Source: Actinomyces sp. HMSC035G02
GTDB lineage: Bacteria; Actinomycetota; Actinomycetes; Actinomycetales; Actinomycetaceae
DNA: 64,000 nt
Assembly: GCA_001838165.1 (NCBI GenBank)
Contig: KV835882.1
Span: 1,014 to 65,013 of the forward strand
Reading direction: 5' to 3'
In this document: positions 5,028 through 43,654 of the stretch, piece after piece
Position numbering within the stretch: position 1 is the first letter of the stretch
How the letters are laid out: each line of letters begins with the position of its first letter
Translations under genes and position numbers: made by a program
The notes under the pieces: model-generated
The model's database searches: none
What the model saw: only the letters and a program-made list of their open reading frames with translations
Told to the model about the DNA's origin: nothing

Positions 5028-5507
5028 ATGAGCTTCTTTGACATGACTTCTGACGCCGACGTTGAGGACGACCTGGATCGCGTCGAGACCGACGTGGTCG
5101 TGGACTGCGACATTGAGGCCGCGTGGGCGCTCGTGTCGGAGCCGGGCTGGTGGGTCAACGACGGCCCGCTGGGTGACCACGAGGTGAGCCTCGGGGACGA
5201 CGGCATCTATCGCGTGAGCGACCCGGACGCTGGCGACTGGCTGATCGAGAAGGCCGACGAGGATCCGATGGATGTCGTCGCCTTCCGCTGGTACCCGCTG
5301 GCCGATGACGAGCTGCCGGACGAGTACGCGACCCGCGTCGAGGTCTCCCTGTCCGAGGAGCGCGGTGGCGTCGCCATCCACGTCGAGGAGTCGGGTCTAG
5401 CGTCGGTCTCCGACGACGAGGCCGAGGCCCGCCAGGCGTACGAGGATGCGATCGGCATGTGGGAGCAGGTCCTGCTCGCGGCGAAGAGCTACCTCGAGGG
5501 CCGCTGA
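5028..5507 (+). CDS. SRPBCC/AHSA1-like family protein
   Basis: A 159-aa acidic protein. VVDCDIEAAWALVSEPGWWVNDG near residue 20, a central set of strands and the C-terminal helix YEDAIGMWEQVLLAAKSYLEGR match the START-like SRPBCC fold of the AHSA1/polyketide-cyclase group. These proteins bind hydrophobic ligands or act as co-chaperones; the ligand cannot be told from sequence. The ATG at 5028 was chosen because a TACCGT -10 box sits 6 nt upstream and the family N terminus begins soon after. Confidence 0.7.
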   Translation: MSFFDMTSDADVEDDLDRVETDVVVDCDIEAAWALVSEPGWWVNDGPLGDHEVSLGDDGIYRVSDPDAGDWLIEKADEDPMDVVAFRWYPLADDELPDEYATRVEVSLSEERGGVAIHVEESGLASVSDDEAEARQAYEDAIGMWEQVLLAAKSYLEGR

Positions 5508-5606
5508 GCGTCTGAGTTTCCGAGCTCCTGGCACTTGCCGGTGTCAGGGACGCTTTATCGTGTTGGCCTGCGGCATTCCGTCGTTTCGATCTGGATCTCG
5601 CCCCGA

Positions 5607-5720
5607 AATTTCGCACGTAATTCCCCCGCAGGTGTTTTAACTTTTGAAGTCAGAACGTTGAAATTCTGCGGTTTCTGGGGTGTTGTTGTGTATGGCCGTC
5701 AGGGAATTACGTGCGGAATT
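5607..5720. repeat. 114-bp inverted-repeat element, copy 1
   Basis: Its terminal arms 5607-5624 and 5703-5720 are 18 nt each and complementary except for one position that would be a G-U pair in RNA. The interior holds GTTGAAATTC and an upstream near-complement TTTTAAC. The second half (about 5654-5720) is nearly identical to copy 2, while the 5' interior differs. Possible identities are a small structured RNA, a bidirectional terminator or a MITE-like element. Confidence 0.75.
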
Positions 5721-5814
5721 GGTGAATGCGGGGACGGTGGTGCGGCGTAGGCTGCGGGTCATTGGCAATGGGCCGCCGGAGGTTCGCCGCGGTTGTGCTT
5801 GTGAGCGTGGGTGT

Positions 5815-5915
5815 TACACCCGATCCGTAGGCAGTGCACCCGATCCGTAGGCAGTGCACCAGTTCTGATCGGGTGCAGCGTCCCGTAAGAGGTGCAGTGT
5901 CCCGTAACGGGTGCA
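5815..5915. repeat. Inverted box array A (3+3 TGCACC boxes)
   Basis: Forward boxes TACACC 5815, TGCACC 5835 and TGCACC 5855 are spaced 20 bp apart. Reverse boxes GGTGCA start at 5872, 5891 and 5910, 19 bp apart. Two forward units (5817-5836 and 5837-5856) are identical 20-mers. The box sequence is conserved across the dyad but most of the spacer is not, which favours protein-binding sites over a hairpin RNA. Confidence 0.7.
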
Positions 5916-5971
5916 GTGCCGGGTATAGGAGTTACTGCGCGGACCATGGTGGAGCTTGTGACTCCGAAGCG

Positions 5972-6076
5972 TTGCACTAGTTGAAGGAGCAATGCACTAG
6001 ATGGGGGAGTATTGCACTGGATAGTAGCTAGTGCAATGCCCTGCTAAGTAGTGCAATGCTGGCGAAAGTGGTGCAA
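5972..6076. repeat. Inverted box array B (3+3 TTGCACT boxes)
   Basis: Forward boxes start at 5972 (TTGCACT), 5992 (ATGCACT) and 6012 (TTGCACT). Reverse boxes start at 6030 (AGTGCAA), 6050 (AGTGCAA) and 6070 (GGTGCAA). Spacing within each half is exactly 20 bp. The array at 35932-36036 has the same geometry and clear sequence similarity. Confidence 0.75.
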
Positions 6077-6145
6077 TGCCTCCCGGTGCCGAATGGTGGG
6101 CGAGCCGCATTGGCGCGTGCAGCGAGTGGGTGTCGGCATCTCCGA

Positions 6146-6259
6146 AATTTCGCACGTAATTCCTCCGCGCGTACTTCAAGATTTTAAGTTAGAACGTTGA
6201 AATTCTGCGGTTTCTGGGGTGTTGTTGTGTGTGGCCGTCAGGGAATTACGTGCGGAATT
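6146..6259. repeat. 114-bp inverted-repeat element, copy 2
   Basis: It has the same length and orientation as copy 1. Its arms are 6146-6163 and 6242-6259. From about 6190 to 6259 it matches copy 1 almost base for base. The 5' interior differs but keeps a TTCAA that can pair with the downstream TTGAA. Together with copy 1 it brackets the two box arrays. Confidence 0.75.
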
Positions 6260-6372
6260 GATGGGGCTGCCGGGTCTATGCTGCTGCGTGCCCGGATGTC
6301 GCGCGCCCGGATGCCGAGCACAGTGTCTCGCCTACCGCGCCGCGCGTGCCGTGCTTGGGTGCCCCGCCGAGC

Positions 6373-6855
6373 CTACTCCGCGTGCTCGGCCTGTCGCGCC
6401 GCCGCCTCGCGTGCCGCCTTCTTGGCGCGGGCGTGCGCCTCGACCTCCTCGGGGGTGAGGGGGCCCTGCGTGGTGCCTTCGCTGCCGTCGGTGCGCTCCC
6501 ACGAAATGGCGAGGCTGTCGCGCGCGCCGAAGCGCGCCAGGTGGATGCCGACGATGAATTCGAGGCGATCGGCGCGCTCGGGCTCCGTGCGCAGCTCGAG
6601 CCGCAGATCAGACGCCGACGCGATCACGTCGAAGCGCCCCAGAACCGGACCTTCGCGGTCGAACAGCAGGTATCCGCTGCCCGCCTCCTCGTCCCACGAG
6701 CCCGTGATCTTGTGTGCCATGTGGCTGACGAGCTGCTTGCCGTAGCGCGCGGCCCGCTCGGTGGGAATGGTAGCCACGGAGATCAGGGGGTACGAGGCCT
6801 CGGCCGTTGAGGGGGTGGTGGTCTCGCCCGTCGAAGGCGTTGGATTCTGCGTCAT
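6373..6855 (-). CDS. DUF2218 domain-containing protein
   Basis: A 160-aa protein. From about residue 25 it reads ISVATIPTERAARYGKQLVSHMAHK, then a glycine-containing turn, LLFDREGPVLGRFDVIASASDLRLELRTE and LEFIVGIHLARFGARDSLAISWE, which is the DUF2218 domain. The C terminus is a charged Ala/Glu/Arg-rich helix. DUF2218 genes are often near iron-related genes in actinobacteria, but function is unknown. A -10-like TAGGTT lies 6 nt before the start, suggesting a leaderless transcript. It converges on the SRPBCC gene across the repeat region. Confidence 0.8.
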   Translation of the reverse strand: MTQNPTPSTGETTTPSTAEASYPLISVATIPTERAARYGKQLVSHMAHKITGSWDEEAGSGYLLFDREGPVLGRFDVIASASDLRLELRTEPERADRLEFIVGIHLARFGARDSLAISWERTDGSEGTTQGPLTPEEVEAHARAKKAAREAAARQAEHAE

Positions 6856-35781: not shown

Positions 35782-35846
35782 GATTCAACCTGATCGGGAA
35801 GATTCCACCCGATCAGAAGGGGTTGAATCTTCCCGATCGGGTGTAA
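35782..35846. repeat. 2+2 box array forming two alternative hairpins
   Basis: Forward boxes TTCAACC 35784 and TTCCACC 35803 are 19 bp apart; reverse boxes GGTTGAA 35821 and GGTGTAA 35840 are 19 bp apart. Hairpin one pairs 35782-35798 with 35808-35815 plus 35821-35829, leaving GAAGG bulged. Hairpin two pairs 35788-35805 with 35825-35842 (17 of 18). They cannot form together. Confidence 0.65.
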
Positions 35847-35931
35847 TACCTCATCGGTAACAAGCGTCGTCGTGGAATGTGTCGCCGACAGTGCCTCCTG
35901 CCAGTGTTCAATGGGCGCAGACTCTGCAGTA

Positions 35932-36036
35932 CTGCACTAGATGCGGGAGCAATGCACTAGTTGTGGGGGCATTGCACTGCCTGCTATCTGGTGCAATGCC
36001 CTGCTAAGTAGTGCAATGCTGTGCGAAGTAGTGCAC
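35932..36036. repeat. Inverted box array, second locus (3+3 TGCACT boxes)
   Basis: Forward boxes start at 35932 (CTGCACT), 35952 (ATGCACT) and 35972 (TTGCACT). Reverse boxes start at 35990 (GGTGCAA), 36010 (AGTGCAA) and 36030 (AGTGCAC). The 20-bp steps and the 18-bp step across the dyad equal those at 5972-6076, and GTGCAATGCCCTGCTAAGTA is shared exactly. Confidence 0.75.
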
Positions 36037-36088
36037 TGCTATTTGGCAACAAGCTCGTGCGCGGCACGCGCCGCGTAAGGAAGCGGGC

Positions 36089-43489: not shown

Positions 43490-43541
43490 CCGCTGACGAG
43501 GTGTGGGGCCGGACCCTGCGCAGGCGCATGTTTACCCAAAA

Positions 43542-43654
43542 ATGTCGCACGTAATTCCCCTCGATATATTTCAAGTTTTAAAATCAGATCGTTGAAATTC
43601 CGGGCAATTCTCGATACCTAATAAAAGGTAGGGGAACCAAATTACGTGCGACAT
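43542..43654. repeat. 113-bp inverted-repeat element, copy 3
   Basis: Arms 43542-43556 and 43640-43654 are perfect 15-bp complements (GTCGCACGTAATT core). Both arms differ from copies 1 and 2 in a way that keeps pairing. It shares TTTCAAG..TTTTAA and GTTGAAATTC with the others, but the second half is different and carries its own TACCT/AGGTA hairpin. It lies between the FGGY kinase and DUF5926 genes. Confidence 0.75.

Follow-up and report, generated by a model that had tools for sequence, protein, structure and literature searches.

The window, which is the whole 64-kb stretch of DNA that was analysed, contains two loci at which mirrored arrays of short TGCAC boxes lie between convergent predicted genes. 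The coordinates of the arrays, their tags, the flanking genes and a companion element (element D) are presented in Table 1. The modules are ordered A-B on the plus strand at the first locus and B-F on the minus strand at the second, where a subtype F module stands head to tail with a third TGCAC array that is absent from the first-pass annotation of this DNA. The left flanking gene of the first locus has an orthologue in 11 of the 11 relatives searched.

Table 1. Positions of arrays, tags, companion elements and flanking genes in the window
Feature	Position	Strand	Description	Basis
Left flanking gene	5028..5507	+	convergent with right flanking gene	gene prediction
Element D, copy 1	5603..5724	.	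about 120 bp, 18-bp inverted ends AATTTCGCACGTAATTCC	
Lead of module A	5787..5803	+	CCGCG N6 CTTGTG, 5' of first box	
Array A	5814..5916	+	subtype A	direct reading and pattern search
Tag of module B	5955..5960	+	CTTGTG	
Array B	5972..6076	+	subtype B	direct reading and pattern search
Element D, copy 2	6142..6263	.	90 percent identical to copy 1	
Right flanking gene	6373..6855	-	convergent	gene prediction
Subtype F module	35784..35864	-	TTCAACC boxes beside one TTACACC box, CTTGTT tag	
Third array	35933..36053 (boxes 35933-36035)	-	subtype B, CTTGTT tag	

Direct reading and pattern search resolve array A into TTACACC at 5814, TGCACC at 5835 and 5855, and inverted GGTGCA at 5872, 5891 and 5910. 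Counted from box positions 5815, 5835 and 5855 and, for the inverted boxes, 5873, 5892 and 5911, the steps are 20 and 20 bp in the first half and 19 and 19 bp in the second. Array B has TGCAC at 5973, 5993 and 6013 and inverted GTGCA at 6031, 6051 and 6071, with all four steps at 20 bp. The third array contains three boxes and three inverted boxes at steps of 20, 20, 18, 20 and 20 bp. Searching the 64-kb window for six mirrored boxes, with no more than one mismatch tolerated in each, returned arrays A, B and 35933-36035. In 100 Markov-simulated windows, boxes spaced at 18-22 bp never formed a run of three or longer, and four-box matches numbered 5 at 3 places in the window versus 0 in 100 dinucleotide shuffles. 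By direct reading, by these searches and by comparison with the simulated and shuffled windows, arrays A and B are real, lie where they had been annotated and stand far above chance.

The annotated geometry of the boxes was retained, and the first box of array A was corrected from TGCACC to TTACACC. TACACC is a frequent box variant: in the oral modules described below it makes up 37 of the 212 boxes in proximal position and 92 of the 295 in distal position. The single identical pair of 20-mers reported inside array A is present. The two arrays do not stand alone as a pair; both are modules of a family with several subtypes that is dispersed between genes. The copy numbers given for this family were taken from relatives of the window and not from the window's own genome.

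The A-B pair is flanked by the two copies of element D, and a further copy is found at 43541-43654. Element D also adjoins arrays in relatives, where its ends can alternatively be GCACGTAATT or GCATGCAATT, and the two ends of a single copy can differ in end type.

Anatomy and turnover of the oral modules

The modules of the oral form, in relatives of Schaalia odontolytica, share one plan: a CTTGT tag stands to one side of a series of boxes spaced at 19-20 bp, which is followed by a second, inverted series with equal spacing. By their boxes, the modules were sorted into four related subtypes: A (TGCACCCGATC), T (TTACACC), B (TGCACT) and F (TTCAACC). The frequency of the tag was tested apart, since the module parsers demanded it. 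Among 45 distinct oral arrays, CTTG[TCA] occurs on exactly one side in 40, on both sides in 1 and on neither in 4, mostly 17-19 bp from the outermost box, and the tag is often preceded by CCGCG. A control word was found on either side in 8 of the 45 arrays, and CTTG[TCA] at 40-54 bp out in 1 of 45.

The subtypes are arranged in tandem, head to tail, with a spacing that is commonly about 148, 168 or 188 bp (137-199 bp seen). Their order varies; L181, for instance, has A-T-B-F, and L174 has T-B-A-A. In 104 oral modules with exact boxes, the number of proximal boxes ranges from one to five (two in 58 modules), as does that of inverted distal boxes (three in 70). About nine boxes were counted by eye in one relative (L212).

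Comparison of orthologous loci revealed both presence and absence of arrays. Both genes of the third-array pair were found in 8 of 11 relatives. Five of the eight carry F-B, F-B, T-B, T-F-B-T and B-T modules (window order), and three have a region of approximately 70-86 bp without arrays, which is hairpin-like by eye in G001 and G159. At the A/B locus, 8 of 11 relatives carry arrays and 2 have a short intergenic region or none; in G005 there is no array within the stretch read, and the second gene was not found. A canonical-looking terminator of the upstream gene stands ahead of the arrays in 7 of the 8 array carriers, as judged by eye. Empty and filled orthologous sites look by eye like replacement and not clean insertion. 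The unit number changes between orthologues by whole 20-bp units, and boxes are only slightly better kept than spacers (differences of 0.15-0.19 and 0.21-0.22, respectively).

Dispersed copies, tandem clusters, optional occupancy of orthologous sites, unit numbers that shift by 20-bp steps and a CTTGT tag at one end would also be expected of selfish, non-autonomous repeats of the REP/MITE type, which survive where they are least harmful and have no host function. In PMC3733652, REPs are described as dispersed in intergenic regions, chiefly where the neighbouring genes are convergent or co-directional, and 3' of coding regions, with inverted units in clusters; a selfish origin is proposed there for REPs and a chromosomal role for BIMEs. 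The arrays resemble REP/BIME elements in being dispersed and intergenic with inverted units in clusters, and they are filed here with the extragenic repeats. They differ in that REP/BIME units are palindromes of 20-40 bp, whereas the arrays are fixed 19-20-bp lattices of short boxes whose sequence changes between lineages while the plan is kept. The REP/BIME tag GTAG/CGTC lies at the foot of the palindrome, whereas the oral modules have CTTGT instead; no GTAG/CGTC tag was apparent on visual inspection of array-bearing regions of Pseudonocardia nigra (P. nigra).

The search for a Y1 transposase counts against the selfish reading: the Y1 (RAYT-type) family PF01797 was detected in none of 14 genomes and in 5 of 14 controls. 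A rolling-circle transposon, which the CTTG tag had brought to mind, was rejected after no Y1 or Y2 transposase was found; the Y2 family PF04986 (IS91-like) was absent from the 14 genomes, and its controls were negative too. The CTTGT tag is confined to one side in the 40 arrays noted above, and matching inverted ends on both sides, as in MITEs, were not seen. We consider a purely selfish origin unlikely.

Fixed spacing, exchange of boxes and distribution

The spacing of the boxes is rigid. In the 104 oral modules, which were collected with TGCAC/TACAC boxes, include orthologues and were permitted steps of 19-21 bp, the proximal steps are 20 bp (87) or 19 bp (21), the distal steps are 19 bp (140) or 20 bp (51), and none is 21 bp. 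The centre distance is identical in 103 of the 104 modules, though 14-21 bp was permitted. Hexamers repeated in both arms of the oral loci occur only at steps of 19, 20, 38 and 40 bp among the 13-40 bp tested. The oral loci had been selected by a 20-bp TGCAC pattern, and independent box classes were therefore needed. For the GGATAGGTT class, which was not selected by the TGCAC pattern, 35 of 35 neighbours within 8-32 bp are 19 bp apart. Neighbouring TTCAACC boxes are 19 bp apart in 14 of 14 cases, and TTACACC boxes 19 bp (7) or 20 bp (9). The reversed arm order was not encountered in the neighbour analysis of these three classes.

Searches that were less dependent on the pattern gave the following results. 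A scan of P. nigra with arm gaps of 7-32 bp yielded the 20-bp geometry 75 times and other geometries 25 times among 100 of the 110 matches listed, with 20 for the control. A sequence-blind scan of 320 kb from two oral genomes returned 13 mirrored repeats, 7 with a step of 19 or 20 bp and the rest with steps of 38-42 bp. Applied to 400 kb drawn from a further 20 actinobacteria, the same scan yielded four candidates (steps of 12, 15, 19 and 24 bp), of which only the 19-bp one looks array-like; in 80 kb of Pseudonocardia G230 it yielded no candidate.

The plan recurs with GGATAGGTT boxes, with CACGTGGCGC boxes in Propioniciclava, and at single loci with TTGGACC, CTCGCAGC and GCACACACC boxes. The Propioniciclava arrays came to light through an excess of control matches. 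The reversed control (CACGT boxes) was compared with the three-box pattern in G005 (23 versus 9), G014 (76 versus 3) and G001 (6 versus 8), and the excess in G014, which is Propioniciclava soli, led to mirrored CACGTGGCGC arrays (L355-L374). In 20 stretches of this genome, whose selection pattern prescribed a single 20-bp step, the distance between same-orientation neighbours is 19-20 bp in 57 of 76 cases and 39-40 bp in 10. The arms follow one order in 16 of 16 flips, and the centre is 45 bp in 9.

A box exchange at a corresponding gene end was observed downstream of a lexA-like gene (named by eye), which is followed by a TGCAC array in P. nigra and by a mirrored 20-bp GCACACACC array in Pseudonocardia G240. 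The latter array also lies between convergent predicted genes. A TGCAC array after the lexA-like gene was present in 1 of 30 genomes read, out of 56 Pseudonocardia genomes with a match. A sequence-blind scan of 213 kb from 58 loci, which were located through two proteins encoded next to arrays in P. nigra, returned two mirrored arrays, both with a step of 20 bp: the GCACACACC array of G240 and a CTCGCAGC array that directly follows a predicted stop codon. The remaining loci contain neither array, and the element is therefore optional.

Several related repeats were noted. The TTGGACC array is in another Actinomycetaceae genome. The GGATAGGTT boxes form a separate dispersed class (L158 4109, L163 2990, L164 3838, L168 4238, L173 4109, L255 15693 and L257 4166). 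S. odontolytica has mirrored TCGCCC boxes at 41-42-bp steps, twice the usual value (L265 8115 and 17037, L267 19652). An oral relative contains mirrored CCGCTAATG / AATAGCGGG boxes at steps of about 20 bp (L262 18340-18520); tandem 20-bp GGGCCCGCTAAT units related to this array are present in G005, and similar 20-bp repeats in G001. The lexA-like gene of one Pseudonocardia genome that lacks a TGCAC array at that position is followed by a near-perfect palindrome of about 60 bp (L306). Pseudonocardia sp. TRM90224 (L240-L251, L011, L027) carries other dispersed intergenic hairpins beside its arrays, e.g. ACTTTCGTCC...GGACGAAAGT.

The distribution of the TGCAC form was determined with a four-box pattern over genomes of 84,980 species, which gave at least 120 stretches. 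By record title, the listed stretches comprise 58 from Pseudonocardia/Pseudonocardiales, 9 from Modestobacter, 25 that are Actinomycetaceae-like and 28 others; the analysis drew mainly on the 92 stretches of the first three groups. A crude test identified 11 of the 120 listed stretches as plain tandem repeats, and some more of the 28 others were so judged by eye. The three-box pattern matched 14 of 14 genomes opened, from 2 matches in the poorest to 62 in Pseudonocardia sp. TRM90224, counts in which one mirrored array may appear on both strands. Matches were obtained in 23 of 213 genomes of the S. odontolytica family and in 17 of 62 of the genus Pseudonocardia. The former comprise an A+B group, to which close relatives of the window belong, another in which the boxes are TGCACGACC, and a few isolated matches that look unrelated; G001-G005 are close to the window, with 98-99 percent identity in one protein. 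A class-wide sample gave matches in 2 of 394 genomes, P. nigra and one plain tandem repeat, and the TGCAC form is therefore patchy and rare across Actinobacteria. Recurrence in other genomes had been predicted in the first-pass annotation, and arrays with TGCAC boxes were found in Pseudonocardia, Modestobacter and other Actinomycetaceae. The geometry and the recurrence of the arrays are solid.

A Geodermatophilaceae genome has an array with an A-type word, TGCACCCGATTCGT, close to oral subtype A (L038 2167-2228). Two proteins in the records Xylanimonas cellulosilytica 352_XCEL (L017) and Sanguibacter keddieii 250_SKED (L009) are 96-99 percent identical to those of the window. The same two proteins of Schaalia odontolytica are 95-98 percent identical to the window, and because of this agreement in protein identity the names of the two records are doubtful and probably wrong.

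Folding, conservation and placement relative to genes

The mirrored halves could act as RNA, pairing into an extended hairpin, interrupted by internal loops at regular intervals, which would end transcription or shield the 3' ends of mRNA. On either strand, arrays A and B and the third array form more stable folds than shuffled sequences (z of -3.8 to -6.6), and the Modestobacter arrays read by eye as long, near-perfect stems. The fold energy is no independent proof, since any inverted array of boxes must fold. A fold that matters would be expected to make partner boxes covary. Partner boxes of oral subtypes A and B are no more alike than shuffled ones, and subtype T has a weak excess. In 24 P. 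nigra arrays the spacer match is 0.639 versus 0.615 expected and the centre match 0.597 versus 0.597; the centres are all of one length, though 16-20 bp was permitted. The spacer match in Pseudonocardia sp. TRM90224 is lower than the shuffled level. In pooled Pseudonocardia genomes the arms match above the shuffled level, 0.577 versus 0.479 (52 arrays) and 0.587 versus 0.528 (21 arrays); this excess is what RNA pairing would produce and counts against a DNA lattice, but it may come from the mixing of species-specific sequence. Rfam returned matches only below the gathering score.

The conservation of TGCAC itself is partly built in, as the loci were found by a TGCAC pattern. Among the pattern-free bases beside TGCAC in P. 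nigra, an A after the core is conserved at 96-100 percent and a C three positions before it at 90-98 percent; mid-spacer bases are conserved at 38-79 percent. That box-flanking bases are kept while mid-spacers vary is also difficult to account for by selfish repeats.

Gene placement was assigned with a home-made, frame-aware gene finder, and some arrays share one intergenic region. The results are as follows. The 36 oral arrays lie between convergent (19), co-directional (16) and divergent (1) genes, usually hundreds of bp from a stop codon. For Pseudonocardia the corresponding numbers are 29, 27 and 2, with 1 array inside a gene and 6 at a contig edge; the background at those loci is 62, 197 and 65. 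In Modestobacter 8 of 8 placed arrays are convergent and 1 is at an edge, with some of the loci orthologous. The 22 Propioniciclava arrays are convergent (8), co-directional (7) and divergent (7) against a background of 18, 30 and 19, which is no 3' preference. Two of three arrays in Actinomyces glycerinitolerans lie between divergent predicted genes. The convergent placement that the first-pass annotation had considered therefore holds for about half of the oral arrays and is above background in Pseudonocardia, but it does not hold in Propioniciclava. Divergent promoters are avoided in the oral clade and Pseudonocardia, as selfish repeats would also do, and not in Propioniciclava, L188 and L190.

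A close association with gene ends was found in P. nigra, where 16 of 25 arrays are convergent, 7 co-directional, none divergent, 1 inside a gene and 1 at an edge. In 15 regions of 72-106 bp between convergent genes, the array takes up nearly all of the space, and the median distance from the stop codon to the outermost core is 10 bp. Any signal for the end of these transcripts has to lie within the array or within the genes. TTTT is present in 0 of 50 outward 20-nt flanks, which are slightly T-rich (0.168 versus 0.130).

This position right after the stop codon is shared with intrinsic terminators, as is the inverted repeat, and would suit an RNA hairpin. The arrays differ from intrinsic terminators in their conserved box sequence, in mid-spacers without covariation and, in P. 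nigra, in the missing T tract. Together with the rigid length of the centres, the lack of an Rfam family at threshold and the arrays between divergent genes, these differences make an RNA function improbable. Rigid spacing, variable spacers and opposite boxes without covariation within a genome disfavour RNA pairing, and a DNA-binding protein that reads each array from both sides, as first suggested from arrays A and B, remains the best fit to the same three features. The arrays are likely to be a DNA lattice for a sequence-specific DNA-binding protein.

Such a lattice of protein sites could serve the chromosome, for example in gyrase action, nucleoid folding or domain borders, as proposed for BIMEs, and the geometric evidence of DNA binding applies equally to this role. 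The oral clusters are large, far from stop codons and often behind terminators, and the Propioniciclava arrays are indifferent to gene orientation, as such a role would allow. The P. nigra arrays abut both stop codons, closer than a purely architectural site needs, and the patchy occurrence between close species argues against an essential chromosomal role. The abutting stop codons also count against selfish repeats. A chromosomal function is given a low probability.

Proposed mechanism and relation to known systems

Bacterial transcript ends are usually ascribed to RNA hairpins or Rho, and to our knowledge dedicated DNA-bound terminators are known mainly from phage stoperators. In the mechanism proposed here, the array would be a lattice of sites recognized by a putative DNA-binding protein in a sequence-specific manner. 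With direct boxes spaced by about two turns of the helix, several copies of the protein would come to lie on nearly one face of the DNA, where they may bind cooperatively. The reversed second half would present the same face to RNA polymerase arriving from either side. At gene 3' ends the lattice could then form a barrier in both directions, at which the transcripts of adjacent genes are ended or kept apart, by analogy with phage stoperators set back to back.

This combination of a protein lattice with a two-way transcription barrier at gene 3' ends is put forward tentatively, with a probability somewhat below even. A barrier would be our best guess for the clades with arrays at gene ends. It is less sure in Propioniciclava, because of the absence of a 3' preference, and for the oral tandem clusters, because these often stand behind an ordinary terminator. 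If transcripts do end at lattices, bacterial chromosomes would have a third mode of termination, and the lattices could be used as compact two-way insulators. Under the same condition, box exchange at constant geometry would also allow a direct test of how a protein co-evolves with dozens of its sites.

A broader proposal is that the arrays represent a new class of chromosomal element in Actinobacteria, in which mirrored 19-20-bp lattices are bound by a lineage-specific protein and stop polymerase in both directions without an RNA hairpin. The plan would stay constant as box and protein are exchanged jointly, in sister species even at one and the same gene end. The oral subtypes would have diversified in tandem clusters. 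This proposal is speculative and, taken as a whole, rather doubtful.

Among known systems, the stoperators of cluster A mycobacteriophages have sites of similar form. According to PMC9283540, the L5 repressor recognizes asymmetric sites of 13 bp, which are located in short intergenic spaces, are oriented with transcription and are proposed to halt elongation. The P. nigra box of about 13 bp (consensus GACCGTGCACACC) is of similar size and likewise a short asymmetric site in short intergenic spaces. The L5 stoperators, as described there, follow the direction of transcription and belong to a phage genome, whereas the arrays are phased, mirrored lattices on chromosomes with one to several sites per arm, and the matching repressor is putative. 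A description of this plan was not found in the open literature, to which the search was limited; subscription papers were outside its scope.

Iteron arrays of plasmid replicons also have boxes at steps of about 20 bp. The present arrays differ in being mirrored and in having many chromosomal copies. Iteron-like control of a plasmid, one of the first suggestions for arrays A and B, is unsupported in view of these copies, the lack of a common flanking gene family and a plasmid collection without a match. No linked gene or replication initiator was recognized by eye among the 25 largest clusters of neighbouring proteins; these consist of orthologues or of broad families, ABC ATPases among them. 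The phage and plasmid collections gave no match, and a viral scan gave 2 stretches. Near-identical TTGCACT arrays with 20-bp steps are present in a viral contig (L001 10745-10807, minus strand) and in a Planktothrix plasmid (L018 4548-4611).
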